Positions 3,063 to 18,747 of a DNA stretch of 20,299 nucleotides are shown one piece after another. How positions within the stretch are numbered: position 1 is the stretch's first letter; the number at the start of each line of letters is the position of its first letter. Made by a program: the position numbers and the translations under genes. Origin of the DNA: an uncultured Cloacibacillus sp. (lineage in GTDB: Bacteria; Synergistota; Synergistia; Synergistales; Synergistaceae); NCBI GenBank assembly GCA_900544635.1, contig UQVV01000007.1, forward strand, positions 1-20,299. Reading direction: 5' to 3'. The notes below the pieces were generated by a model. It was given only the letters and a program-made list of their open reading frames with translations, made no database searches and was not told where the DNA came from.

Positions 3063-3310
3063 TCTTCTAATTCTCCCGTCTCTTCGTCCTCAGTGTTTTC
3101 AGTTATCGGAATGCCCTCCGCCCTCAGCGACTCCATAAGGCTCAGCAGGTATTGCTCCTGTCCCGAGGGCGTGAAGACGGTTATCTTCCCCGCCTTCGCG
3201 TCGTCGGTCTGGAGGAAGCCGATGCCCTCGGCCGCGTCGATTATCCAGCTTATATAATATATGTCCTCGTGCGGGACGGTAAACTTCAGCGCTTTTATCT
3301 CGGGTTTCAC
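3059..3310 (-). CDS. Small DUF4911-like protein
   Basis: An 83-residue acidic protein starting at GTG (3310-3308). The frame is open further upstream, but this start is preferred for two reasons: it makes a GTGA overlap with the mltG stop, and GGGGGA lies about 8 nt upstream. The sequence has an alternating strand/helix pattern (KALKFTVPHEDIYYISWIID, then a hydrophobic turn, then KAGKITVFTPSG and a final helix). This resembles the short DUF4911 family, a compact alpha/beta domain of unknown function. The tail is a run of Glu and Asp (about residues 70-83). No catalytic residues are recognisable. Tight coupling to mltG and tldD suggests an accessory role in that operon, which is inference. Confidence 0.8.
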   Translation of the reverse strand: MKPEIKALKFTVPHEDIYYISWIIDAAEGIGFLQTDDAKAGKITVFTPSGQEQYLLSLMESLRAEGIPITENTEDEETGELEE

Positions 3311-4317
3311 CGCGTCATCCCCCGCTGCTTCGCAATGTGCTCGCCGTAGGTCCTGCTGAATATGTGCCTTCCCCTTCCGTCCGCGAAGAAGAAGAGATAT
3401 TCCGTCTCCTGCGGCGCGAGCGCGCTCTTCCACGAGCTTTCGGAGGGCACGCATATCGGTCCCGGCGGCAGGCCGTCGTTCCGGTATGTGTTGTACGGCG
3501 AGTCGATTTCAAGGTCTTTGTATGTGAGCGCCGTCTTCTTTTCGCCGCGCTCGGCCCAGCAGTATATGACCGTCGCGCAGGACTGTAGGCGCATCTTTTT
3601 TTCTATCCTTTTGAGGAATATCCCGGCAAGTATCGGGCGCTCCTCCGCGACGCGGGCTTCGCCCTCGACCACGGAGGCGAGCACGCCGCGCATGAGCACG
3701 TCGTTCGCGGGCGTGTCTTCGGGGATCTCTTTACCGACTCTCTCGAACCAGAGCCGCGAGGCCGACGCTATAAAGCCGTCAGCGACGGCGGGGCCGGGCG
3801 CTACGAAATATGTCTCGGGCAGAAGGAACACCATCCGCGCGCGCACGTCCTCCGGCAGCCATTTGCGCACCGGCTCGCAGAAATTTTCGGCCTTCGCCAT
3901 AGCGGAATAGAAATCCGCCGCGGTCACGCCCTCCGCCGCGAAGAGCGCCGCGAGCCTGTCGAAGCGCGAGCCTGGGATCAGCGCCGCGCGCTCGACGACG
4001 GGCTTCGCCTTTTCGAGCTGCTTCACGGCCCCGCGCGGCGTGGAGCGGCGCAGCGTATAAAGGCCGGGCTTTATCTTCCTGTCGAGCCCGGAGCGGGCCA
4101 TCTCGCGCACTAGCGCGCCCGCGTCGTCCACGACGCCCGCCTCTTCGAGCAGGCGCGCCGCCGCTCCAGCCGAGGCTCCCGACGGTATGACGACCTCGAA
4201 GCTCCGGAAATATCCGTCCGGCAGCTCCGGATAGGCATACGGCATATAGAGGCAGACGAAGCAGTACGCCGAAACCGCGATTATGTAAACGATGATATCA
4301 GTAATCCTGTCCTTCAA
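3307..4317 (-). CDS. mltG: Endolytic murein transglycosylase MltG (YceG-like)
   Basis: MltG cleaves nascent peptidoglycan strands at the inner membrane and so helps set glycan length. I start it at TTG 4317-4315, because GGAGGG (4325-4330) sits 7 nt upstream; an in-frame TTG at 4344 would put the ribosome site inside the gene. The protein is 336 residues: one N-terminal membrane anchor (about residues 5-27), a LysM-like region (about 35-95), then the YceG catalytic domain. The catalytic glutamate is Glu218 in ASVVEGEARVAEER, equivalent to Glu218 of E. coli MltG. The downstream family motifs MRLQSCATVIY, SPYNTYRNDGLPPGPI and FFADGRGRHIFSRTYGEH are all present. It is the first gene of the operon and overlaps the next by GTGA. 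Confidence 0.95.
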   Translation of the reverse strand: MKDRITDIIVYIIAVSAYCFVCLYMPYAYPELPDGYFRSFEVVIPSGASAGAAARLLEEAGVVDDAGALVREMARSGLDRKIKPGLYTLRRSTPRGAVKQLEKAKPVVERAALIPGSRFDRLAALFAAEGVTAADFYSAMAKAENFCEPVRKWLPEDVRARMVFLLPETYFVAPGPAVADGFIASASRLWFERVGKEIPEDTPANDVLMRGVLASVVEGEARVAEERPILAGIFLKRIEKKMRLQSCATVIYCWAERGEKKTALTYKDLEIDSPYNTYRNDGLPPGPICVPSESSWKSALAPQETEYLFFFADGRGRHIFSRTYGEHIAKQRGMTR

Positions 4318-4354
4318 TGCACAGCCCTCCCGCGCGCCGTTCAAAGCGTTACTT

Positions 4355-4383: not shown

Positions 4384-4430
4384 CTAAAGCGCAGCGAACG
4401 CTTTGTAAACTTTGATTGTGCTTCCCTGTA

Positions 4431-4459
4431 TTGACATTGACGGAGCTTTGGCGTATAAA
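4431..4459 (+). promoter_or_regulatory. Promoter of the serine biosynthesis operon
   Basis: A perfect -35 box TTGACA (4431-4436), a 17-nt spacer and a -10 box TATAAA (4454-4459, one mismatch). The predicted start of transcription is about 4466, leaving a leader of about 224 nt before the aminotransferase. A strong constitutive promoter in front of a long leader fits control by attenuation rather than by a repressor. Confidence 0.85.
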
Positions 4460-4498
4460 AGTTAGCTAGTTAAGTCTTTGAGTACGGGAGGGCCGCCG

Positions 4499-4600
4499 GT
4501 GTCATACTTCGCATATTCTTCGTCGTCATGCAGTTCGTCGCGCCTCTCCTCGTGGAGCGGCATTTGTTCCGCGCGCCCGTCTCAAAGCGAACAGCATTGA
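4499..4600 (+). CDS. Serine-rich leader peptide (putative ser attenuator)
   Basis: A 33-codon reading frame starting at GTG 4499, preceded by GGGAGGG (4486-4492) with a 6-nt gap, and ending at TGA 4598. Fourteen of 33 residues are serine, at positions 2, 7-10, 12-14, 17, 18, 20, 24, 28 and 30. The core reads YSSSSCSSSRLSSWSG. All six serine codons occur (TCG five times; TCA, TCT, TCC and AGC twice each; AGT once). There are also two Cys codons (11 and 23). It lies between a strong promoter and an intrinsic terminator, directly in front of serine biosynthesis genes. By analogy with the trp, his and thr leaders, its role would be to stall the ribosome when charged seryl-tRNA is scarce. Translation and function are inferred. 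It is too short for ordinary gene callers. Confidence 0.85.
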   Translation: MSYFAYSSSSCSSSRLSSWSGICSARPSQSEQH

Positions 4601-4636
4601 CGCGCCGTACACCGGCGCATGAAGCAGAAACGTTTT

Positions 4637-4667
4637 GAGACCGGAGGATTCTTTCGGTCTCTTTTTT
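4637..4667 (+). terminator. Intrinsic terminator of the serine leader (attenuator)
   Basis: GAGACCGGAGG pairs with CTTTCGGTCTC (11 bp, two G-U) around a three-base loop, and is followed by six T residues (4662-4667). It ends only 22 nt before the aminotransferase start, so it can only serve as a conditional terminator for that operon. Confidence 0.9.
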
Positions 4668-4689
4668 ATTTTATGAGGGAGGTTTTATC

Positions 4690-5781
4690 TTGAGAAAATA
4701 TCTATTGACTCCCGGGCCCGTCGAGGTTCCGCCGCCGGTCCTCGCCGCGCAGGGCGCGCAGATGGAGAGCCACAGGTGCGCCGCTTTTTCGTCGCTCTTC
4801 ATGGGAATATCGGAGAAGCTCGGGAAGCTGCTCGAAAGCTCCCAGCCCGTCGTCATACTCCCTTCTTCGGGGACGGGGGCGCTCGAGTGCGCCGCGGTCA
4901 ACTTTCTCGGCGCGGGAGATAAATTCATCTCGCTCTCCTGCGGCGCATTCGGCAAAAGATTCCGCGAGATAGCGCTGCGCACCGGCGCGCAGGGAGTCTT
5001 CGGCGATTACGAGGAAGGGCGCGCCCCTACGCCAGAGGACGCGGCGGCGCTGCTGCGCGCGCACCCCGACGCCAAGGCGCTGCTCGTCACGCACAACGAG
5101 ACCTCGACCGGCGTGACGGTCCCGGTGCGCGAAATCATCTCGGCTCTGCCGGAGGAGAACCGCCCGCTGATTTTAGTCGACGGAGTCAGTTCAGTCGGCG
5201 CGATGGAGTGCTTTCCCGAGAAATGGGGAGTAGACGTTCTATGCACCGCTTCGCAGAAGGGGCTGATGACGCCGCCTGGCCTCGGATTCGTATGGCTCTC
5301 GAAGCGCGCGCTCGCCGCGCTCGAAAAGCGCGATTGCCCGAGCTACTACTTCGACCTCAAGCTTCATCTAAAATATATGAAAAAAGATTCCTACGAAAAC
5401 CCCTACACGCCGCCGGTGTCGCTCTACTACGCGCTCGACGCGGCGCTCGGCGTCATATTGAAGGACGGCGCGCGCGAATGGTTCGCGAAGCGCCGCCGCT
5501 GGGCGGACGGCTTCGCATCAGGCCTCGAGGCTATGGGCTTCGAGCTTCTCGTAAAGGACCCGGCGATTCGTTCCGCCGGCGTCACGGCTTTCTCCGCACC
5601 TGACGGCAAAAGCGAAGCCGTGCGCAAAATACTTTCGCGCATGGGGCTGACGACGGCGGGCGGACAGGGCGCGCTCAAAGGGAAGATAATACGCTCCGCG
5701 CACTACAGCGACTGGGGCGAGGCTGAGCTTGCGGAAATACTCGGCGCTTTCGGCGAAGCGCTGAAAGAGGCTGCGGAATAA
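4690..5781 (+). CDS. Class V aminotransferase, probable phosphoserine aminotransferase
   Basis: A PLP-dependent fold type I, class V aminotransferase of the serine-pyruvate/alanine-glyoxylate aminotransferase type, 363 residues. The PLP-binding lysine is Lys190 in TASQKGLMTPPG. Asp164 in LILVDGVSS would contact the pyridine nitrogen, and SSGTGALE (59-66) forms the phosphate cup. It starts with the family signature LLTPGPVEVP. The TTG start (4690) has GAGGGAGG (4675-4682) 7 nt upstream. It is not a classical SerC sequence. Because serA follows 52 nt later and a phosphatase follows serA, the likely reaction is 3-phosphohydroxypyruvate plus glutamate to phosphoserine. Related serA-adjacent aminotransferases are thought to replace SerC in other bacteria. 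Serine-glyoxylate or alanine-glyoxylate activity remains possible. It is the first gene behind the attenuator. Confidence 0.9.
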   Translation: MRKYLLTPGPVEVPPPVLAAQGAQMESHRCAAFSSLFMGISEKLGKLLESSQPVVILPSSGTGALECAAVNFLGAGDKFISLSCGAFGKRFREIALRTGAQGVFGDYEEGRAPTPEDAAALLRAHPDAKALLVTHNETSTGVTVPVREIISALPEENRPLILVDGVSSVGAMECFPEKWGVDVLCTASQKGLMTPPGLGFVWLSKRALAALEKRDCPSYYFDLKLHLKYMKKDSYENPYTPPVSLYYALDAALGVILKDGAREWFAKRRRWADGFASGLEAMGFELLVKDPAIRSAGVTAFSAPDGKSEAVRKILSRMGLTTAGGQGALKGKIIRSAHYSDWGEAELAEILGAFGEALKEAAE

Positions 5782-5833: not shown

Positions 5834-7480
5834 ATGGATAATAAATGGAAAGTCCTTGTAACGGAGAAGGTCGGAGAGGCCGGCCTCGACATATTCAGAA
5901 ACGCGCCCGAGGTGGAGCTTGAAGTCGCCCTCGGCCTCACGGACGAGCAGATAATCGAAAAGCTCGCCGGCATCGACGCGATACTGACGCGCAGCGGCAC
6001 GACGATGGACGAGAAAAAAATCGAGGCCGGAGACAGGCTCAAGGTCATAGGCCGCGCGGGAGTCGGCGTTGACAACATCGACCTCCCCGCCGCGAGCCGA
6101 CGCGGGATAATAGTCATCAACGCGCCGAGCGGAAACACGCTCGCGGCGACGGAGCTGACGATGGCGAACATGCTCGCCGTCGTCCGCATGGTCCCGCAGG
6201 CCTGCGCCTCGCTCCACGCCGGAAAATGGAACAGGAACAAATTCACGGGCCGCCAGCTCAGCGGCAAAAAGCTGCTCGTCATCGGCCTCGGCAGGATAGG
6301 CAGCGAAGTTGCGAAGCGCGCGCGCGCATTCGGCATGGAGGTCGTCGCCTACGACCCGTACATCCCGCACACGAAGGCCGATTCGCTCCACGTCGAGCTG
6401 ATGAGCGACCTCGAAGGGGCCGTCTCGCTCGCCGACATGGTGACGATACATACGCCGCTCACCGAAGAGACGGCGAACATGATAGACGAAAGCATGCTGC
6501 GCGTCTTCAAGCACGGAGCGTACCTCGTGAACTGCGCGCGCGGCGGCATCGTCGACGAGGCGGCGGTCGCGCAGGCGGTGCGTGACGGGCGGCTCGGCGG
6601 ATTCGCGACAGACGTCTACAGCGCGGAGCCTCTCACGCCTGGGCACCCGTTCCTCGCCGAGGACATAGCGGACAGGATAGTGATAACGCCGCACATCGGC
6701 GCGAACACCGTCGAGGCGCAGTCCGAGGTCTCGCGCATAGCGGCGCAGAACATGCTCAGCGTGCTGCGCGGCGAGCCCTACAACCACGCGGTGAACCTGC
6801 CCTTCCTCGAGCAGGCGCTCAACAACGACCAGCGCATGTACCTCAGCCTCTCGCGCAAGATAGGCCTGCTCGCTGCGAAGCTCGCGCAGGTGCGCGGCTC
6901 CGCTCCGCACAAATGCCACGTTACGCTGCGCGGCCCGCTCTTCGACGACGAGGAAAAGCGCCTTGCGAACAAGCTGCGCCCCTACACCATCGCGGTGCTC
7001 AAGGGTATGCTCGAAATCAGCATCGGCACGCCTGTCAGCTACATGCTCGCGCCGCTGCTCGCGAAGGACAGGGACATCTCCATCGACGAGAGCTACGGAG
7101 AGCCGCGCACCTACAAGAACACGATAGAGGTCGAGCTCGAGACCGCGAAGGGCTCCGTCTCGCTGCTCGCGACGATAACGGAAGAGGGCCGCCAGAGGAT
7201 AGTCCGCGTCAACGACTACTGGGTCGACTTCGTGCCGACCGGCAAGCTGCTCATCTTCCAGAACCACGACCGCCCCGGCGTCATAGGCAAGATAGGAAGC
7301 ATCCTCGGCGAAGCTGGCGTCAACATTGCGAACTTCGCGCTCGGACGCAAGGAAGGCAGCGGCCTCGCGCTCGGCGCGCTCGAAATAGACGGCGAGACGG
7401 ACGACAGCCTCAACGGCGAGCTCATCAAGAGCGGCGACATGGTCTGGGTCGCGACTGTAGACTTCACGAAGGCGGGATAA
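5834..7480 (+). CDS. serA: D-3-phosphoglycerate dehydrogenase
   Basis: Catalyses the first step of serine synthesis, oxidising 3-phosphoglycerate to 3-phosphohydroxypyruvate with NAD. At 548 residues it is the long (type 1) form: a substrate and nucleotide-binding core (1-315), an allosteric substrate-binding domain (about 325-460) and a C-terminal ACT domain (about 472-545, beginning LLIFQNHDRPGVIGKIG). The NAD motif GLGRIG is at 151-156. The catalytic residues are Arg236 (NCARGG), Glu265 (SAEP) and His287 (TPHIGA). The ACT domain suggests feedback control by serine, as known for type 1 enzymes, on top of the leader control upstream. The ATG start has no strong ribosome site; AAGGA lies 18 nt upstream, which is far. 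The phosphatase gene starts 4 nt after the stop. Confidence 0.97.
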   Translation: MDNKWKVLVTEKVGEAGLDIFRNAPEVELEVALGLTDEQIIEKLAGIDAILTRSGTTMDEKKIEAGDRLKVIGRAGVGVDNIDLPAASRRGIIVINAPSGNTLAATELTMANMLAVVRMVPQACASLHAGKWNRNKFTGRQLSGKKLLVIGLGRIGSEVAKRARAFGMEVVAYDPYIPHTKADSLHVELMSDLEGAVSLADMVTIHTPLTEETANMIDESMLRVFKHGAYLVNCARGGIVDEAAVAQAVRDGRLGGFATDVYSAEPLTPGHPFLAEDIADRIVITPHIGANTVEAQSEVSRIAAQNMLSVLRGEPYNHAVNLPFLEQALNNDQRMYLSLSRKIGLLAAKLAQVRGSAPHKCHVTLRGPLFDDEEKRLANKLRPYTIAVLKGMLEISIGTPVSYMLAPLLAKDRDISIDESYGEPRTYKNTIEVELETAKGSVSLLATITEEGRQRIVRVNDYWVDFVPTGKLLIFQNHDRPGVIGKIGSILGEAGVNIANFALGRKEGSGLALGALEIDGETDDSLNGELIKSGDMVWVATVDFTKAG

Positions 7481-7484
7481 AAGA

Positions 7485-8129
7485 ATGAGATTTTTCGTAA
7501 TACGCCACGGCGAGACGGCGTGGAACGTCGAGGGACGCTTTCAGGGACAGAAGGACACGGCGCTGAACGAAAAGGGGCTCGCGCAGGCCGCGACGCTCGG
7601 AGAGCGGCTCGCCGGACACAGCTTCGAAGCGGTGCTCACAAGCCCGCTCGACCGCGCGAAGAAAACCGCCGAGCTCGCCGCCTCGAAGTGCGAGTTCGGA
7701 GAATTTACGGAAATTCCGGCCTTCACGGAAATCAACCACGGAGACTGGGAGGGCCGCCTCTCGACCGAAGTCGCGGAAGAATGGCCCGAGCTTCTCCGCC
7801 GCTGGCACACCGCGCCCGAGACGGTGAAGATGCCCGGCGAAGGCGGCGAGAGCCTCGAGGACATAGCGCGCAGGGCGGTTCCCGCGGTTGAAGCGGCGGC
7901 GAAAAAATACAAGGGCGACGTGCTCCTCGCCTCGCACGACGCGGTCATCAAGGTTCTGCTCTGCTACTGGCTCGACGCCCCGCTTTCGAGCTTTTTCAGA
8001 TTCCAGGTGCCGAACTGCAGCATCACGATAGTCGAGATGAAGGAAGGCCGCGCGCCGAGAATGAGCCTCATGGGCGACGCCGCGCATCTCGGCGGAAACT
8101 TCGAAAGCCCCGAGCAAAAGGGCTTGTAG
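7485..8129 (+). CDS. Histidine phosphatase, probable metal-independent phosphoserine phosphatase
   Basis: Histidine phosphatase (phosphoglycerate mutase-like) superfamily, 214 residues. The RHGE motif is at 7-10, with His8 the residue expected to be phosphorylated. Arg57 (TSPLDRAKKT), Glu82 (FTEINHGDWEGR) and His151 (LLASHDAVIK) complete the usual active site. By itself the family could be a cobalamin-pathway phosphatase (CobC) or a general phosphatase. The 4-nt gap after serA in an operon that already has the dehydrogenase and an aminotransferase makes the metal-independent phosphoserine phosphatase role, known from Hydrogenobacter PspA, the best reading. It would convert phosphoserine to serine and complete the pathway. 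No HAD-type SerB is present in the window. Confidence 0.88.
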   Translation: MRFFVIRHGETAWNVEGRFQGQKDTALNEKGLAQAATLGERLAGHSFEAVLTSPLDRAKKTAELAASKCEFGEFTEIPAFTEINHGDWEGRLSTEVAEEWPELLRRWHTAPETVKMPGEGGESLEDIARRAVPAVEAAAKKYKGDVLLASHDAVIKVLLCYWLDAPLSSFFRFQVPNCSITIVEMKEGRAPRMSLMGDAAHLGGNFESPEQKGL

Positions 8130-8172: not shown

Positions 8173-9342
8173 ATGCTTGGAGCTCTCGTAGGCGATATAG
8201 TGGGCTCGGTCTTTGAGCGCGCCCCGCATAAAAGCAAAGAGTTCGACTTTATCTCCGAAAAAAGCCGCTTCACGGACGACTCCGTCCTGACGCTTGCGAC
8301 GGCGGACGCGATACTGCACGGCTACGGCTACATGGAGGTTTTCAAATACTGGGGACGCTGCTATCCGAACGCCGGATACGGCGACAAATTCTTCAGATGG
8401 TGCCTCTCCGACGAGAAGGAACAGGGCGAAAGCTTCGGCAACGGCTCCGCGATGCGCGTCTCCCCCGTCGCGTGGGCCTTCGACACGCTCGACGAAGTCC
8501 TCGCCGAGGCTAAGAAAAGCGCCGAACCGAGTCACAACCACCCCGAGGGCATAAAGGGCGCGTCGGCCGTCGCCGCGGCGATATTCCTCGCGCGCACGGG
8601 AAAGTCCAAGGACGAGATAAAGGAATACGTCGAAAAGGAATTCGGCTACGACCTGAGCCGCACCGTAGGCAAGATAAGACGCGGCTATAAATTCGACGCC
8701 ACATGCCCGGGCAGCGTGCCCGAGGCGCTCATAGCGTTCCTCGACTCCGACTCTTTTGAGGACGCGCTGCGCAACGCCGTCTCCCTCGGCGGAGACTCCG
8801 ACACCCAGGCCTGCATCGCGGGCGCGGTGGCGGAAGCCTTCTACGGCCCGATATCCGAAAAATGGGTCTCTCTGCTCAACGTCCTGCTGCCGCAGGAGGC
8901 GATCAAGGTCGCCGAAGAATTCAACAAAAAATACCTCGGCTCGCGCTACAACTTCTTCTCCTGCGCCGTCGAGGGCAGCTCCGGAGAGCCGTGCAAAAAC
9001 GGCGCGCCGCACAATCTGCTCAGGCTCGACCCGTCGGACTGCCGCTGGTGGGTGCGCTCTCCCGAGACGGACGAAGAGGTCTGGGCCTTCGCAGCCGGCT
9101 CCGGCAAAAAATCCGGCCCCGTCGTCTGCTTCTGCACAGGCACGTCCGTCATCTTCGACTACCTCTCCTTCAAAACCTTCGAGGACGCGTTCATCGCGCT
9201 GAACCGCAACGGCTTCGACCTCTACTTTGAAAACTACTCCGAGGGAGACATCAACGTCTACGACTACGGCCTCCGCCCGCCGCGCCGCCGCTTTGAGATA
9301 GAAGAGCATCCGCTCTTCTCGCAGGGCGACCAGTGGAGCTGA
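8173..9342 (+). CDS. ADP-ribosylglycohydrolase family protein with C-terminal extension
   Basis: The N-terminal 260 residues are an ADP-ribosylglycohydrolase (DraG/ARH3-like) domain, an all-helical dinuclear-metal enzyme that removes ADP-ribose from targets. Metal-ligand motifs are visible: FTDDSVLT with Asp35 and Asp36, and GGDSDTQA at 206-213. GNGSAMRVSP (89-98) is also typical. Residues about 261-389 form an unrecognised extension rich in Cys, Trp, Tyr and Phe, with a charged, Arg-rich end. The start is ATG 8173 with only a weak ribosome site. It follows the phosphatase by 43 nt with no terminator between, so it probably shares the serine-operon transcript; a TATAAT at 8130-8135 might add a weak internal promoter, though no -35 is apparent. 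The substrate is unknown. Confidence 0.88.
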   Translation: MLGALVGDIVGSVFERAPHKSKEFDFISEKSRFTDDSVLTLATADAILHGYGYMEVFKYWGRCYPNAGYGDKFFRWCLSDEKEQGESFGNGSAMRVSPVAWAFDTLDEVLAEAKKSAEPSHNHPEGIKGASAVAAAIFLARTGKSKDEIKEYVEKEFGYDLSRTVGKIRRGYKFDATCPGSVPEALIAFLDSDSFEDALRNAVSLGGDSDTQACIAGAVAEAFYGPISEKWVSLLNVLLPQEAIKVAEEFNKKYLGSRYNFFSCAVEGSSGEPCKNGAPHNLLRLDPSDCRWWVRSPETDEEVWAFAAGSGKKSGPVVCFCTGTSVIFDYLSFKTFEDAFIALNRNGFDLYFENYSEGDINVYDYGLRPPRRRFEIEEHPLFSQGDQWS

Positions 9343-12569: not shown

Positions 12570-14588
12570 TTATTTGCTTTTCGCGACGAGGTCGGTGAGG
12601 TAGGCGTCGTCCGCGATGTACGGGAGCGTGATGTGTCCGTCGCTGCGCTTCGCGTTGAAGGTCTCGACCGTCTCGATGGCGTGCTCGTTGCGGGCCCAGG
12701 CGCGTCTCGCGACTCCGCTGATGACGTCCCAGCTCATGGACTCGAGGATTATTCTGTCCACTCTTTCGCTTCCGTCGAGGACGAGTCCGAAGCCGCCGTT
12801 GATGGATTTGCCGGTGCCAACGCCGCCGCCGTTGTGGAGCGCGACGAGGCTCATGCCGCGGGCGCAGTTTCCGGCGAAGGTGTGGATCGCCATTTCGGCC
12901 ATGACGTTGCTGCCGTCGTAGATGTTCGAGGTCTCGCGGTAGGGCGAGTCGGTGCCGGATACGTCGTGGTGGTCGCGTCCGAGCATGACGGGTCCGATTT
13001 CTCCGTTGCGGACCATTTCGTTGAAGCGGAGGGCTATCTTCATGCGGCCCTCTTCATCCTGATAGAGGATGCGGCACTGCGTACCGACGACGAGCTTGTT
13101 CTTCTCCGCGTCGCGGATCCAGACCCAGTTGTCGTGGTCCTGGAAGCGGCGGTTTTCGTCGATGCACTCCATCGCGGCGTGGTCGGTCTTGATGAGGTCC
13201 TCGGGGTTGCGCGAGAGGCAGCACCAGCGGAACGGTCCGTAGCCGTAGTCGAAGAGGAGCGGTCCCATGATGTCTTCGACGTAGGAGGGGAAGATGAAGC
13301 CTTCGAAGGTGTTTTCGCCGTTCTTGGCGATTTCCTTCACGCCGGAATCAAATACCGCGCGCATGAAGGCGTTGCCGTAGTCGAAGAAGTAGGCTCCCTT
13401 CGCGACGAGGGCCTTGATGAGCTCGAAGTGCTTCTTGAGGGTCTTGTCGACGAGGCGGACGAATTCGTCGTGGTCCTCGGCGAGGAGGCGCGTTCTCTCT
13501 TCGAAGCTGATTCCCTGCGGGCAGTAGCCTCCGTCGTAGACGGCGTGGCAGGAGGTCTGGTCGGAGAGGAGCTCGACGTTCTTATCGTTGTCGAGCGCGT
13601 ACTGGAGAAGGTCGACGATGTTGCCTTCGTAGGCTATCGAGAGCGGCTTGCCCTCGGCCATCGCTTCCTCGGCCCACGCGAAAGCTTCGGCGAGGTCCTT
13701 CGTCCTCTTGCTGACCCAGCCCTGGTTGTAGCGCGTGTCGATGCGCGACGGGTCGACTTCGGCGATTATCGCGGCGGCGCCGGCTATCTCGGCGGCCTTC
13801 GGCTGAGCTCCGCTCATTCCGCCGAGTCCTGACGAAATGAAGAGGTGTCCCGCAAGCCCCTTGCCCTCGGCGAGGTGGAACTTCTTGCGGCCCGCGTTGA
13901 GCAGCGTGTTGTAGGTTCCGTGTACGATTCCCTGCGGCCCGATGTACATCCAGCCGCCGGCGGTCATCTGTCCGTAGTTCGCTACGCCGAGCGCGGTCGC
14001 GCGGCGGAAGTTCTCGGGGTCGTCGAAGAGCCCGACCATGAGGCCGTTCGTGAGGATGACGCGCGGCGCGGAGGGATGCGAGCGGAAGAGTCCGAGCGGA
14101 TGGCCCGACTGCACTACGAGCGTCTGGTCCTGCGTGACGATTTCAAGATATTTTTTGATGAGGAGGTACTGCATCCAGTTCTGGCAGACCTGCCCGGTCT
14201 CTCCGTAGGTGACGAGCTCGTAAGGATAGAGCGCCACGTCGAAGTCAAGGTTGTTGTCGATCATTACCTGGAGGGCTTTGCCTTCGATGCACTTGCCCTT
14301 ATATTCGTCGATGGGTTTGCCGTAGAGCTTTCCTTTCGGACGGAAGCGGTAGCCGTAGATGCGTCCATGCTCCTGGTATTCCTTGAGGAACTCGGGGGCG
14401 AGCTCTTTGTGGTACTTCTCGGGGATGTAGCGCAGCGCGTTCTTGAGCGCGAGGACGACTTCTTTGTCGTTGAGGACCTGTCCCCTGTTGGGAGCCCTTC
14501 TTATTCCGGGCTCAAATTCCGGCATCTCCGGAAGTCCGTCCGGAAATTCCAGCCTGAGTTCAAGCGCTTTTCCTGCCGCGTCATGCAT
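12570..14588 (-). CDS. hutU: Urocanate hydratase, long form
   Basis: Second enzyme of histidine degradation: urocanate plus water to imidazolonepropionate, using a tightly bound NAD. At 672 residues it is about 115 longer than the classical 550-560 residue enzymes. Family landmarks are SSGLGGMSGAQPKAA (252-266, NAD region), DPSRIDTRY (279-287), SDQTS and GGYCPQG (342-359), GPFRW (451-455), GRDHHDVSG (537-545) and DSPYRETSNIYDGSN (547-561). The classical ARICW segment with its active-site cysteine appears here as QCRILY (504-509), so the cysteine is shifted (Cys505). GGGAGGAG lies about 10 nt before the ATG. It diverges from hutH across a 323-nt regulatory region and has its own terminator. 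Confidence 0.95.
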   Translation of the reverse strand: MHDAAGKALELRLEFPDGLPEMPEFEPGIRRAPNRGQVLNDKEVVLALKNALRYIPEKYHKELAPEFLKEYQEHGRIYGYRFRPKGKLYGKPIDEYKGKCIEGKALQVMIDNNLDFDVALYPYELVTYGETGQVCQNWMQYLLIKKYLEIVTQDQTLVVQSGHPLGLFRSHPSAPRVILTNGLMVGLFDDPENFRRATALGVANYGQMTAGGWMYIGPQGIVHGTYNTLLNAGRKKFHLAEGKGLAGHLFISSGLGGMSGAQPKAAEIAGAAAIIAEVDPSRIDTRYNQGWVSKRTKDLAEAFAWAEEAMAEGKPLSIAYEGNIVDLLQYALDNDKNVELLSDQTSCHAVYDGGYCPQGISFEERTRLLAEDHDEFVRLVDKTLKKHFELIKALVAKGAYFFDYGNAFMRAVFDSGVKEIAKNGENTFEGFIFPSYVEDIMGPLLFDYGYGPFRWCCLSRNPEDLIKTDHAAMECIDENRRFQDHDNWVWIRDAEKNKLVVGTQCRILYQDEEGRMKIALRFNEMVRNGEIGPVMLGRDHHDVSGTDSPYRETSNIYDGSNVMAEMAIHTFAGNCARGMSLVALHNGGGVGTGKSINGGFGLVLDGSERVDRIILESMSWDVISGVARRAWARNEHAIETVETFNAKRSDGHITLPYIADDAYLTDLVAKSK

Positions 14589-14657
14589 AGTTCATTACTC
14601 CTCCCATAGATATATCAAAATATATGAGGCTTGCCGCCTTTATCATAATCTTCGCAT

Positions 14658-14715
14658 ATAATATAGCGCGCTTTTATAAAATAAACGTAAAAAGACCTAT
14701 CCGGCGCTTTTTACG
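14658..14715. promoter_or_regulatory. hutU/hutH divergent regulatory element, copy A
   Basis: On the plus strand CGTAAAAAG (14686-14694) and CTTTTTACG (14707-14715) form a perfect inverted repeat with a 12-nt spacer. Next to it, read toward hutU on the minus strand, is TTTATTTTATAAAA (14685-14672) and then a -10-like TATATT (14665-14660). The same arrangement stands in front of ftcD. It lies about 28 nt upstream of the hutH -35 box, so one bound protein could affect both directions. The -35 box of hutU is not clear. Confidence 0.6.
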
Positions 14716-14742
14716 CCCCGCGCCGCTTTTATATTTTCCTTC

Positions 14743-14770
14743 TTGACTTAGCGGAGTTTCATACTATACT
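14743..14770 (+). promoter_or_regulatory. hutH: Promoter of hutH
   Basis: TTGACT (14743-14748), a 16-nt spacer and TATACT (14765-14770). Transcription would begin near 14777, giving a leader of about 135 nt. The leader contains an AGTGC/GCACT pairing (14808-14812 with 14833-14837), which may be a small stem, but no recognised riboswitch and no histidine-rich short frame. Confidence 0.75.
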
Positions 14771-14780
14771 AATTGTAGCG

Positions 14781-14805
14781 CAAAATTTTAGGATCTAAAA
14801 GTTTT
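14781..14805. repeat. Inverted repeat just downstream of the hutH start of transcription
   Basis: CAAAATTTTAG-GAT-CTAAAAGTTTT: ten of eleven potential pairs, with the inner six (TTTTAG/CTAAAA) perfect. It covers about +5 to +29 of the predicted hutH transcript, the classic place for a repressor that blocks clearance. It differs in sequence from the GTAAAAAG element farther upstream. Confidence 0.55.
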
Positions 14806-14911
14806 AAAGTGCGAAAGAGGTATTTTCCGGCTGCACTCTAAGATAAGACTGAAATATATTATAGCATAACAGGGCGACATGTCATAAAAATCAATCTAAG
14901 GAGGAAATTTT

Positions 14912-16438
14912 ATGTCGACACTCTATTTGGACGGTAAGTCACTCACTCTTCAGGACGTCGTGAACGTCGCGCGCAAGGGCTGGAAGGTTGAAATCTCCCC
15001 CGAAGCGAAGGAACAGATAAAGGAATGCGCCAAGGCGGTCCTCGCGTGGGCCGACGAAGGCCGCGTCGTCTACGGCGTAACGACGGGCTTCGGCGACCTC
15101 GCCTCCGTCGTCATCCCGCGCGACAAATGCCGCCAGCTTCAGGAGAACCTTCTTCTGAGCCACTCCTGCGGCTTCGGCGAGCCCTATCCCGAGGACGTAG
15201 TCCGCGCGATAATGCTGCTCCGCATCAACACGCTCTCCCGCGGCTACTCCGGCATCAGCCTCGAGACGCTCCAGCAGATGGTCGACTACCTCAACCTCGG
15301 CATCCATCCCGTCGTCCCGACCCAGGGCTCCGTCGGCGCGAGCGGCGACCTCTGCCCGCTTTCGCACGTCGCGATATCGCTCATCGGCCACGGCAACGTC
15401 GTCTATCAGGGCAAGGTGATGCCGACCTCCGAAGCGCTCGTCAAGGCCGGAATGAAGCCCGTCGAGCTCCAGCCGAAGGAAGGGCTCGCGCTTAACAACG
15501 GAACGACCGTTATGAACGCAGTTGCTGCCCTCTGCATCGTCGACGCGCTCACAATGCAGAAGAATGCCGATATCGCCGCTTCGATGTCCGCCGAGGCGCT
15601 CCACGCCGTTCCCTACGCCTTCGACAAAAGAACCCACGACCTCCGTCCGCAGGTCGGCCAGGGAATCGTAGCCGAAAATATGCGCCGCCTGCTCGAAGGC
15701 AGCGAAATCGTCGAGGCCTACAAGAAAGACCGCGTCCAGGACGCCTACTCGCTGCGCTGCCTGCCGCAGGTCCACGGCGCGAGCCGCGACGCCATCGCCT
15801 ACGTCAAGGAAAAGATAGAAATTGAAATCAACTCCGTCACCGACAACCCGATCATCTTCCACAAAGACGGCGACGCGGTCAGCGGCGGAAACTTCCACGG
15901 CCAGCCGATGGCTATGGCGATGGACTTCTTCGGCATCGCCGCGGCGGAGTTCGCGAACATCGCCGAGCGCCGCATCGCGCGCATGGTCGACCACAAGCTC
16001 TCCGACCTGCCTCCGTTCCTCGTTTCCGACAGCGGCGTCAACAGCGGCTTCATGATTCCGCAGTACACCGCGGCGGCGCTCGTCTCCGAGAACAAGGTCC
16101 TCGCGCATCCCTCTGTCGTCGACTCGATACCGACCTCCGCGAACCAGGAAGACCACGTCTCGATGGGCGGATACAGCGCGCGCAAGGCCCGCCAGATACT
16201 CAACAACACGAACCGCGTCATCGCGATAGAGATGGTCAACGCGGCGCAGGGCATGGACTTCCGCGCTCCTCTGAAGCCAGGCAAAGGCTCCGGCGCGGCC
16301 TACGCGGAATTCCGCAAGCACATCCCCTTCTATGAGAAGGACCAGTTCATGCAGCCGCTCCTTCTGAAGTCGCTCGAGCTCGTCGAGAACGGCACGATGG
16401 TCGAAGCGGTCGAAAAGGAGATAGGCGAACTCAAGTAA
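14912..16438 (+). CDS. hutH: Histidine ammonia-lyase
   Basis: First step of histidine degradation: histidine to urocanate and ammonia. At 508 residues it is the usual length. The Ala-Ser-Gly triplet that cyclises into the MIO cofactor is at 143-145 in GSVGASGDLCPLSH, the same numbering as Pseudomonas HutH. Tyr54 (VVYGVTTGFG), the NNGT segment (195-198) and QDAYSLRCLPQVHGA are also conserved, as are SVTDNP and the NQEDHVSMG loop. The ribosome site AGGAGG is strong and 7-8 nt from the ATG. It is transcribed away from hutU from its own promoter. A large inverted repeat 31 nt after the stop may weakly terminate this transcript while serving as the ftcD operator. Confidence 0.98.
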   Translation: MSTLYLDGKSLTLQDVVNVARKGWKVEISPEAKEQIKECAKAVLAWADEGRVVYGVTTGFGDLASVVIPRDKCRQLQENLLLSHSCGFGEPYPEDVVRAIMLLRINTLSRGYSGISLETLQQMVDYLNLGIHPVVPTQGSVGASGDLCPLSHVAISLIGHGNVVYQGKVMPTSEALVKAGMKPVELQPKEGLALNNGTTVMNAVAALCIVDALTMQKNADIAASMSAEALHAVPYAFDKRTHDLRPQVGQGIVAENMRRLLEGSEIVEAYKKDRVQDAYSLRCLPQVHGASRDAIAYVKEKIEIEINSVTDNPIIFHKDGDAVSGGNFHGQPMAMAMDFFGIAAAEFANIAERRIARMVDHKLSDLPPFLVSDSGVNSGFMIPQYTAAALVSENKVLAHPSVVDSIPTSANQEDHVSMGGYSARKARQILNNTNRVIAIEMVNAAQGMDFRAPLKPGKGSGAAYAEFRKHIPFYEKDQFMQPLLLKSLELVENGTMVEAVEKEIGELK

Positions 16439-16469
16439 GGGCGCGCCCTAAAACGAAATAAGACGCACG

Positions 16470-16550
16470 ATAAATGTAAAAAGCGGCACCATCGCTTTTT
16501 ACATTTATTTTATAAAAAGACTATACTATAGGGACGATATTTTATAAAAA
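16470..16550. promoter_or_regulatory. ftcD-hutI promoter with inverted repeat, copy B
   Basis: ATAAATGTAAAAAGCG (16470-16485) and CGCTTTTTACATTTAT (16493-16508) form a perfect 16-bp inverted repeat with a 7-nt spacer. Its right arm carries a -35-like TTTACA (16498-16503), followed after 18 nt by TATACT (16522-16527). TATTTTATAAAAA occurs at 16506-16518 and again at 16538-16550, 32 bp apart, on either side of the -10 and the predicted start (about 16534). The repeat plus TTTATTTTATAAAA matches copy A in front of hutU. As RNA the 16-bp stem could also act as a terminator for hutH, but its GC part is only GCG/CGC. Confidence 0.65.
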
Positions 16551-16573
16551 CCGCGAAAGGCGTGATCGCAAAA

Positions 16574-17497
16574 ATGGCAGTGCAGCTGATCGAATGCGTA
16601 CCTAATTTCAGCGAAGGGCGCAGACAGGACGTCATAGACGAAATTGTGAACTGCTTCAAAGGCAAACGCGGCGTGTATCTCCTCGACCACCGCGCCGACG
16701 AAGACCACAACCGCTTGGTCATAAGCCTCGTCGGAGCGCCGGCTCCAATTCAGGAGGCCCTTCTCGAAGCCGCAAAGGTCGCGCTCAAGCACATAGACAT
16801 GAACGCGCACCAGGGCGGCCACCCGCGCATCGGCGCCGTCGACGTCGTTCCGTTCACGCCGATAAAGGGCATCACGATGGAAGAGTGCATAGAGCTCGCG
16901 CACAGCTTCGGCGAGCGCTATTACAAAGAGACGGGCATCCCCGTCTACTTCTACGAGGACGCGGCGCTGCGTCCAGAGCGGAAGCGCCTCGAGGTCATCC
17001 GCAAGGGGCAGTACGAGGTGCTCAAGGACGAGGCGAAGACGAACCCCGACCGCAGGCCGGACATCGGCGAGGCCTGCCTCCACCCCACCGCAGGAGCCAC
17101 CGTCATCGGCGCGCGCAAGTTCCTCGTCGCCTTCAACGTGAACCTCGACACGCCCGACGTAAATATAGCGAAGAAGATAGCGGCGGCGGTCCGCGCGTCG
17201 TCCGGCGGCTTCTGCCACGTCAAGGGCATCGGCCTCGCGCTCGAGGAGCGCGGCATCACGCAGGTCAGCATGAACCTCGTCGACTACGAGAAGAACTCGC
17301 TCTACCGCGTGCTCGAAACGATACGCATGGAGGCGAAGCGCTGGGGCGTCGGCGTCGTCGAGACCGAGGTCTACGGCATGATACCGGTCAACGCGATTCT
17401 TGAAAGCGCCGCGTACTATCTCCAGATAGCGGGCTTCGACCCCGAGCAGGTGCTCGAGCTCCGTCTGCTTGAACTTATGGGAAAGGATGCTGAATAA
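16574..17497 (+). CDS. ftcD: Glutamate formiminotransferase (single domain)
   Basis: Transfers the formimino group of N-formiminoglutamate to tetrahydrofolate, giving glutamate and 5-formimino-THF. It has 307 residues from ATG 16574, matching the N- and C-subdomains of the transferase half only; the cyclodeaminase half of animal FTCD is absent. It begins with the family signature QLIECVPNFSEGR. The catalytic histidine is His83 in NAHQGGHPRIGAVDVVPF, matching His82 of the pig enzyme. A GTG at 16562 is also in frame, but it lies 1 nt from the AAAGG ribosome site, so the ATG is preferred despite a 13-nt gap. Its TAA stop shares one base with the hutI ATG (TAATG), so the two are coupled. The choice of FtcD over HutF/HutG shows the THF-dependent route. 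Confidence 0.96.
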   Translation: MAVQLIECVPNFSEGRRQDVIDEIVNCFKGKRGVYLLDHRADEDHNRLVISLVGAPAPIQEALLEAAKVALKHIDMNAHQGGHPRIGAVDVVPFTPIKGITMEECIELAHSFGERYYKETGIPVYFYEDAALRPERKRLEVIRKGQYEVLKDEAKTNPDRRPDIGEACLHPTAGATVIGARKFLVAFNVNLDTPDVNIAKKIAAAVRASSGGFCHVKGIGLALEERGITQVSMNLVDYEKNSLYRVLETIRMEAKRWGVGVVETEVYGMIPVNAILESAAYYLQIAGFDPEQVLELRLLELMGKDAE

Positions 17498-18747
17498 TGG
17501 GTACTAAAAAACTTTACCGCAACATGCGCCTCTTCACCCCCGTCGACGGCGGACATCCGCTCGCGGGCAAAGAGCAGGCCAACGTCAAGGAAATCAAAAA
17601 AGCCGCGATGCTCGTCAGCGGCGGAATCATCGAGAAAATAGGCGAAGAGGAAGAAATCCTCAAAAACGTCTGCCCCTGCGAGATAGCGATAGAAAAGGAC
17701 TTCGGCGGGGCCTGCGTCATCCCCGGCTTCGTCGACCCGCACACGCACATGTGCTTCGCGAAGCGCCGCGAGGACGAGTTCGGGATGCGCCTTGCGGGAC
17801 TTCCCTACCTTGAGATACTCGCGCGCGGCGGCGGCATACTCTCCTCGGTCAACGCCGTAAAGGCCGCGACGGAGGAGCAGCTTTTCGAGACGACGAAAAA
17901 GCTCGCGCTCGCCGCTCTCGCGAAGGGAACGACCACCGTCGAGATAAAGAGCGGCTACGGCCTCGAGCTCGGCCTCGAGCTGAAAATGCTCGAGGTTATA
18001 GGCCGCGTCGGACGCGAAACGCCGCTCGACGTAGTGCCGACCTTCATGGGCGCGCACGCCGTGCCGCAGGAATACAAGGGCCGCGCCGACGAGTTCGTCG
18101 ACGAAGTGCTCGTCAAGCAGATGCTGCCGAAGGTCAAGGAACAGGGCATAGCGGAGTTCTGCGACGTATTCTGCGAGGAGGGCGTGTTCTCCGTAGACCA
18201 GAGCCGCAGGCTGCTCAAGGCCGCGAAGGAGATGGGCTTCGACACGAAGATACACGCCGACGAAGTCAACGACCTCGGCGGCGCGGGGCTCGCTGCAGAG
18301 CTCGCGACGCGCTCCGCGGAGCACCTTCTCGCCGCGTCGGAGGAAAACCTCCGCGCGATGGGGCGCGCCGGCTCGATAGCTGTTCTGCTCCCCGCGACGG
18401 CCTACAGCCTTAAGAAGCCCTACGCGCCCGGCCGCGCAATGGTCGACTGGGGCGTGCCGGTCGCGATGGCGACGGACTGCAACCCCGGCTCCTGCTTCTG
18501 CGAGTCGATGCCGTTCATCTTCGGCCTCGGCGTAATGTGCATGGATCTCTCCGTCGAAGAGGCGCTCACAGCATCGACGCTGAACGCCGCATACGCCGTG
18601 AACCGCGCGAAGAGGCTCGGCAGCCTCGAAGAGGGCAAGCAGGCGGACTTCCTCGTCCTCGACGGCGAAAGCCCGACGACGCTCGCCTACCACGCCGGCG
18701 CGACCTCGATCGAAGAGGTCTACAAGCTCGGCGAACACGTGGCGTAA
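17497..18747 (+). CDS. hutI: Imidazolonepropionase
   Basis: Third histidine-degradation enzyme: hydrolyses 4-imidazolone-5-propionate to N-formiminoglutamate, the substrate of FtcD encoded just upstream. A 416-residue amidohydrolase. Metal ligands are His82 and His84 (DPHTHMCF), His253 (KIHADE) and Asp327 (ATDCNPGS). His187 (MGAHAVP) and His276 (AEHLL) complete the active site, and Glu256 in HADE is the likely general base. It begins MGTKKLYRNMRLFTP, typical of the composite beta-sandwich domain. It overlaps ftcD by one base and is followed by a strong terminator, so ftcD-hutI is a two-gene unit. Confidence 0.97.
   Translation: MGTKKLYRNMRLFTPVDGGHPLAGKEQANVKEIKKAAMLVSGGIIEKIGEEEEILKNVCPCEIAIEKDFGGACVIPGFVDPHTHMCFAKRREDEFGMRLAGLPYLEILARGGGILSSVNAVKAATEEQLFETTKKLALAALAKGTTTVEIKSGYGLELGLELKMLEVIGRVGRETPLDVVPTFMGAHAVPQEYKGRADEFVDEVLVKQMLPKVKEQGIAEFCDVFCEEGVFSVDQSRRLLKAAKEMGFDTKIHADEVNDLGGAGLAAELATRSAEHLLAASEENLRAMGRAGSIAVLLPATAYSLKKPYAPGRAMVDWGVPVAMATDCNPGSCFCESMPFIFGLGVMCMDLSVEEALTASTLNAAYAVNRAKRLGSLEEGKQADFLVLDGESPTTLAYHAGATSIEEVYKLGEHVA

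Follow-up and report, generated by a model that had tools for sequence, protein, structure and literature searches.

The window, i.e. the entire 20,299-nucleotide stretch of DNA analyzed here, carries a predicted serine-biosynthesis operon with the genes for a class V aminotransferase, the phosphoglycerate dehydrogenase SerA and a histidine phosphatase (Table 1). A gene of the ADP-ribosylglycohydrolase family (8173-9342) lies after the operon on the same strand. Upstream, the interval from the minus-strand mltG-family gene to the aminotransferase gene holds, in this order, a promoter, a GGGAGGG motif, a GTG-initiated reading frame and a terminator hairpin with a T tract. Direct reading of the frame yields the peptide MSYFAYSSSSCSSSRLSSWSGICSARPSQSEQH and confirms the 33 codons, the 14 serines, the GTG start and the GGGAGGG ribosome site that the original prediction had described. 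The near-consensus promoter and the intrinsic terminator that it had placed on either side of the frame were likewise recovered, the latter as a predicted hairpin. The promoter is missing from our automated scan because the scan rule requires a T as the final base of the second hexamer; in a pattern search, a comparable -35/spacer/-10 arrangement was found ahead of 43 of the 61 leaders described below.

Table 1. Genes and predicted regulatory features in and around the leader region (window coordinates).
Feature	Position	Strand	Details
mltG-family gene	3307-4344	-	upstream neighbor of the leader region
Predicted sigma-70 promoter, TTGACA-17-TATAAA	4431-4459	+	from sequence; TTGACA 4431-4436, 17-nt spacer, TATAAA 4454-4459
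Shine-Dalgarno-like GGGAGGG of the leader frame	4486-4492	+	from sequence
Serine-rich leader peptide frame	4499-4600	+	GTG 4499-4501, TGA 4598-4600; 33 codons, 14 Ser
Serine-rich control region, codons 7-20	4517-4558	+	predicted ribosome stall zone; from sequence and aligned Ser columns
Strand 2, predicted antiterminator 5' arm	4579-4589	+	GTCTCAAAGCG; inside the 3'-terminal codons of the frame
Strand 3, predicted antiterminator 3' arm	4631-4641	+	CGTTTTGAGAC; final 5 bases common to the terminator stem
Predicted intrinsic terminator	4637-4667	+	11-bp stem and T tract; GAGACCGGAGGATTCTTTCGGTCTC at 4637-4661 with a 3-nt loop, then six T
Class V aminotransferase	4690-5781	+	TTG start; Shine-Dalgarno-like GAGGGAGG at 4675-4682; predicted phosphoserine aminotransferase
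serA, phosphoglycerate dehydrogenase	5834-7480	+	TIGR01327, 565.8 bits (cut-off 454)
Histidine phosphatase	7485-8129	+	predicted phosphoserine phosphatase, from operon context

The phosphoserine aminotransferase and phosphoserine phosphatase roles are predicted from the operon. The aminotransferase reaches the cut-off of neither SerC nor any other NCBIfam equivalog; its best-scoring solved relative, 2dr1, is deposited as a hypothetical serine aminotransferase, and it is 91% identical to the copy in Ca. Caccocola faecipullorum (L001; Synergistota, Synergistales). In Caldicellulosiruptor, according to an excerpt of PMC6391272, a class V aminotransferase also adjoins phosphoglycerate dehydrogenase. 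For the histidine phosphatase, the top two NCBIfam models, alpha-ribazole phosphatase (141.1, cut-off 162.9) and the phosphoserine phosphatase PspA (140.3, cut-off 350), score level and below their respective cut-offs. Of the downstream genes named in the original prediction, the aminotransferase and serA are thus borne out, whereas the phosphoserine phosphatase is PspA-like below the cut-off only.

Two further parts of the window deserve mention. Frames inspected by eye at 12570-18747 resemble urocanate hydratase (on the minus strand), histidine ammonia-lyase, formimidoyltransferase and imidazolonepropionase, which we take to be a histidine-use cluster. At 352-449, ARAGORN reports a tRNA-Glu(ctc) of 98 nt; it overlaps a long open frame, is of unusual length and is possibly false.

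Conservation across Synergistales

Our survey covered the phylum Synergistota. A search with the aminotransferase at the level of the family found matches in 49 of 52 genomes at a threshold of 0.001 (paralogues included), and a search at the level of the phylum found matches in 71 of 185 genomes at 1e-60. Upstream DNA from these 71 genomes gave 72 loci, with two from genome G033; a second copy in G001 begins at a contig end. Adding the window and removing two loci with less than 200 nt upstream (L061, L068) as well as five outgroup loci of families f2 and f3, which were tallied separately (L070-L074, of which L074 has 42 nt upstream), 66 of 73 loci remained. They represent 59 genomes plus the window, in seven families, with the names of order and family taken from the classification of G001. 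L001, a copy of L003, was omitted, and L002 begins within the gene. A separate scan of contigs returned two loci, both from Ca. Caccocola faecipullorum.

A frame with at least five serines is found upstream of the orthologous aminotransferase genes at 61 of the 66 loci of the order: in the window itself, at 40 of 43 loci in family f1, 3/3 in f6, 3/3 in f7, 3/5 in f8, 2/2 in f10, 2/2 in f11 and 7/7 in f12. The five aminotransferase loci without such a leader are L009, L019, L020, L046 and L047. This tally includes some decisions by hand: L047, with 5 serines in 27 codons, passes the bare cut and was removed (best hairpin -7.1 kcal/mol); L027 and L069, with five serines each, were retained, as were L042, L044, L062 and L065, which have no terminator in the strict scan. 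Among the outgroup loci of family f2, where the aminotransferases are just 38-41% identical, the frame is present in none of four. Among the leaders, the serines are preserved and their flanks have diverged, e.g. in the runs SSSSLSSGLSSC, SSSSSSSSGWSG and SSSSSSSASSC. The check that had been proposed for the frame, namely whether it is retained in relatives while the nucleotides vary, was therefore passed at most loci of the order.

Serine-rich frames also precede serA in genomes that have no match to this aminotransferase. Judged by eye from the serine run and its place, they occur at 11 of 15 such loci, in families f1, f4, f5 and f8; 8 of the 15 reach a Ser score of 1.5, and 10 of the 11 leaders are accompanied by a terminator hairpin. 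L075-L078 are the loci without a serine-rich leader; L077 (6 serines in 25 codons, no terminator) was scored as such, and a sixteenth piece, L090, was too short.

Several individual loci are peculiar. In L020 (G017), the terminator is retained within very AT-rich DNA from which the serine-rich frame is absent; it is perhaps a decayed leader. Genome G033 carries two diverged aminotransferase-serA pairs, on contigs C26 (L022) and C95 (L045), each with a serine-rich leader of its own; these may be paralogues or reflect mixed strains. Finally, two serA genes of one genus contain one in-frame TGA each (G077:C34:3630-5273 and G081:C59:105944-107587; L087 and L088). Both are preceded by a serine-rich leader, and their genomes contain no aminotransferase match at 1e-60.

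Serine enrichment and codon choice

To what extent could such frames arise from base composition? For the window leader, none of 300 dinucleotide-shuffled versions of the 330 nt upstream reaches the Ser score of 5.94. Among 1332 overlapping 330-nt stretches of the window (both strands), however, 13 reach a score of 5.9: seven hold the leader and six another frame, near positions 840-1320 of the plus strand, in a stretch with further long open frames. Since the score is not unique within the window, the case had to be settled by comparison with the relatives. No more than 14 of 300 shuffles attain the score in 44 of the 61 leaders; in the other 17, at least 15 do, up to 117 in L027 and 128 in L069.

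Because the highest-scoring frame for serine was taken as the leader, its serine content is inflated, but control regions were handled alike. A score of at least 1.5 is reached at 49 of the 66 aminotransferase loci, compared to none of 30 regions upstream of serS and none of 26 upstream of leuA, some of which contain coding sequence (leuA region L139 failed the open-frame check, and L148-L150 are not included). Leader and control scores differ with a Mann-Whitney p of 1.2e-16, for loci that are not independent of each other. With 0/30, we rejected the idea of a regulon that includes serS. The leuA regions hold an observation of their own: in L142-L146 (family f8), leuA is preceded by short leucine-rich frames such as MRDVIFTLALLALALNLREC, with Leu scores of 1.09-1.75 that carry no shuffle control. 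Leucine leaders may therefore exist in Synergistales.

Serine has the highest z of all residues at 38 of 65 loci, whereas any other residue ranks first at four loci at most; the median z per locus is 3.35 for serine and 0.8 for glycine, the next residue, and it is 0.5 for cysteine. Serine accounts for 25.0% of the 2269 codons of the 61 leaders, while the two alternative frames contain 7.3% and 7.2%. In the aminotransferase genes themselves, it accounts for 7.5%.

All six serine codons are used in the leaders (TCC 185, TCT 140, TCA 84, TCG 81, AGC 44, AGT 34). UCN and AGY codons, whose boxes differ at two positions, are mixed in five of the six conserved serine columns, and in all six the third codon position is the most variable one, narrowly so in one. 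Of the serine codons, 86% are UCN in the leaders, versus 78% in the aminotransferase genes; locus by locus, the leader has the higher UCN share in 44 cases and the gene in 17. For Bacillus subtilis, the pertinent part of PMC3862929 reports that the starvation-sensitive serine codons are UCN, not AGY.

Predicted terminator and antiterminator

Between leader and gene, 57 of the 61 loci feature a T tract together with a hairpin whose ΔG is below -10 kcal/mol. In the window, the 5' strand of the predicted terminator (strand 3) could alternatively pair with strand 2 at the end of the frame. We counted pairs for this antiterminator in 15 core loci of family f1 over 12 positions, leaving out L013, whose leader is identical to that of L012. 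Strands 2 and 3 are paired in 172 of 180 cells, and strands 3 and 4, which form the terminator, in 105 of 105; a script tallied strands that had been selected with patterns modeled on the very sequences being counted. The counts were not taken from a single MAFFT alignment, since in the core set MAFFT shifted the arm that contains a bulged base by one column. Within the core, strand 2 reads GTCCCGAAACG in genus g4, and strand 3 is either CGTTTTGAGAC or CGTTTC-A-GGGAC, the latter with one bulged base. At two antiterminator pairs, both sides have changed (T-A to C-G and A-T to G-C), each maybe in a single event on the tree.

Outside the f1 core, pairing was observed clade by clade, and the arms of other genera appear to differ but to follow a shared plan. 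An example from genus g10 is CCTCGCCTCG with CGAAGCGAGG, where the duplexes fall short of a p of 0.05. Over all clades, the antiterminator duplex is better than that of shuffles at p<0.05 in 19 of 57 loci, with a median p of 0.10 and a p of 0.124 for the window.

The antiterminator is the predicted fold of the window segment 4571-4649 on its own, at -32.1 kcal/mol and a z of -3.74, and none of 200 shuffles is as good. With the second arm of the terminator added, the terminator forms instead, matching the expectation for a transcript without a stalled ribosome. An additional pairing noticed by eye, 4491-4501 with 4608-4619, was dropped, as its 3' portion is altered in L003.

The position of these arms relative to the frame is given here in window coordinates only: strand 2 ends 8 nt ahead of the stop codon, and the serine region ends at 4558. 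Based on the general size of a ribosome footprint, a ribosome at the stop codon would therefore cover at least part of strand 2, whereas stalling in codons 7-20 would leave this strand exposed.

A candidate serine attenuator and its alternatives

Taken together, these features make it highly probable, as judged from sequence, that the region is a ribosome-mediated transcription attenuator of the predicted serine-biosynthesis operon, one that likely senses the charging of seryl-tRNA. It comprises a short frame with a putative ribosome site between promoter and first gene, a run of serine codons, a predicted intrinsic terminator and a predicted, mutually exclusive antiterminator that shares a terminator strand and is weaker over all clades. 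In window coordinates, a ribosome at the stop codon would mask strand 2 and one at the regulatory codons would leave it free. RNA polymerase would start at the promoter, and a ribosome would trail it on the leader frame. If charged tRNA-Ser is scarce, this ribosome would stall in codons 7-20, with its A site at or before 4558. For the steps from stalling to read-through, we infer that strand 2 would then pair with strand 3 and block the terminator, such that the aminotransferase, serA and phosphatase genes are transcribed. By this deduced route, a lack of serine would turn on the operon. The original prediction had likened the design to the trp, his, leu and thr attenuators in a version for serine; the relatives, the negative control genes and the antiterminator with its compensating changes lend support to this proposal.

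The leader may possibly read more than serine. Glycine and cysteine are direct products of serine, and both are enriched in the frame when the 61 leaders are pooled (glycine 12.8% vs 8.2% in shuffles, z 11.4; cysteine 5.6% vs 3.1%, z 7.2), in comparison to shuffles in which stop codons may interrupt the frame and with a part that the RNA arms may account for. Proline, leucine, arginine and phenylalanine are depleted. Furthermore, six loci of genus g9 (L029, L030, L031, L032, L036 and L040) have 8-9 nt between the end of the -10 box and the start of the leader and show no ribosome site on visual inspection, which points to possibly leaderless transcripts at these loci. It is a speculative idea, to which we give a modest chance, that the leader reads serine, glycine and cysteine jointly and is tuned to one-carbon and sulfur supply as well, and that g9 leaders are translated on leaderless mRNA from the leader start codon.

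Other explanations compete with the seryl-tRNA attenuator. The leader could be translated and conserved for control at the level of translation or by Rho, with the position of the ribosome opening the start site or allowing reinitiation. There is a precedent in the cysteine leaders of actinobacteria, for which Rho has been proposed in the absence of conserved terminators (as given in parts of PMC1262725), but a strong hairpin with T tract after 57 of 61 leaders and the alternative pairing of the first terminator strand with the end of the frame make this explanation unlikely. It appears still less likely that a structured, pyrimidine-rich RNA is conserved for pairing or protein binding, with the serine reading of UCC and UCU as a by-product. 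The UCC/UCU runs of families f8 and f12 could indeed pair with a downstream purine-rich stretch, as noticed by eye, and glycine is enriched as well; yet the use of all six serine codons, the restriction of serine to one frame and the variability of third positions speak against it.

The simplest objection, a chance frame or an artefact of composition at the window locus alone, can draw on the second frame in the window with an equal Ser score, but is very hard to reconcile with conservation over the order and with the negative control genes. Likewise, a small serine-rich peptide might act in trans as a protein, as does the leader peptide peTrpL in Sinorhizobium (described in a section of PMC7298713); given that sequences and lengths diverge strongly outside the serine runs, we see almost no likelihood in this idea. 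As for known RNA elements, a T-box or riboswitch was rejected, as no Rfam family reached its gathering score anywhere in the window. The sole sub-threshold Rfam match within 4400-4720 is anti-hemB (18.9 of 49.5 bits, E 0.035), which we regard as chance, and the covariance model of the serC motif, RF00517, has no match in the window.

Relation to known systems and implications

The seryl-tRNA attenuator predicted here would extend an established type of regulator to a new specificity, serine, and to a new phylum, Synergistota. With the trp, his, leu and thr attenuators of Proteobacteria, as outlined in portions of PMC1183508, it shares the short frame with a run of codons for the product, an antiterminator arm in the last part of this frame and the terminator before the first gene. 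It differs in that it is predicted to sense serine, whose six codons fall into two boxes, in its occurrence in Synergistota and in having no Rfam match at gathering score. The actinobacterial cys operons resemble it in that their leader frames likewise abound in a serine-family amino acid, but conserved terminators are not reported for them in the available text of PMC1262725, whereas a terminator and an antiterminator are predicted here. The serC RNA motif RF00517 of alpha-proteobacteria is also a 5' element of a serC-serA operon; according to passages of PMC1273637, its two hairpins are thought to hide the ribosome site, L-serine is without effect on the structure, and those passages name no leader peptide. 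Serine starvation is also sensed in B. subtilis sinR, via slow decoding of UCN codons, but there within the regulator gene, which the authors contrast with attenuation leaders in the relevant extract of PMC3862929.

The original prediction knew of no well-established serine leader-peptide attenuator, and we recognized none among the matches listed in the open-access literature. A survey of premature terminators does not contain the word serine (PMC2965389), and another study uses it once, for another motif (PMC2864571). The group of amino-acid leaders is given as Trp, His, Leu and Thr in a segment of PMC3766115, and a portion of PMC9413887 deals with HisR sites in Synergistetes and describes His leaders in Firmicutes.

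With its six codons in two unlinked boxes, serine is a hard case for theories of attenuator codon usage that build on selective tRNA charging (as set out in part in PMC1183508). Around 60 divergent natural serine leaders would allow the choice between UCN and AGY, the number of serine codons and their spacing to be compared. If the prediction is confirmed, serine would join the amino acids under leader-peptide attenuation, and Synergistota would gain this form of control.
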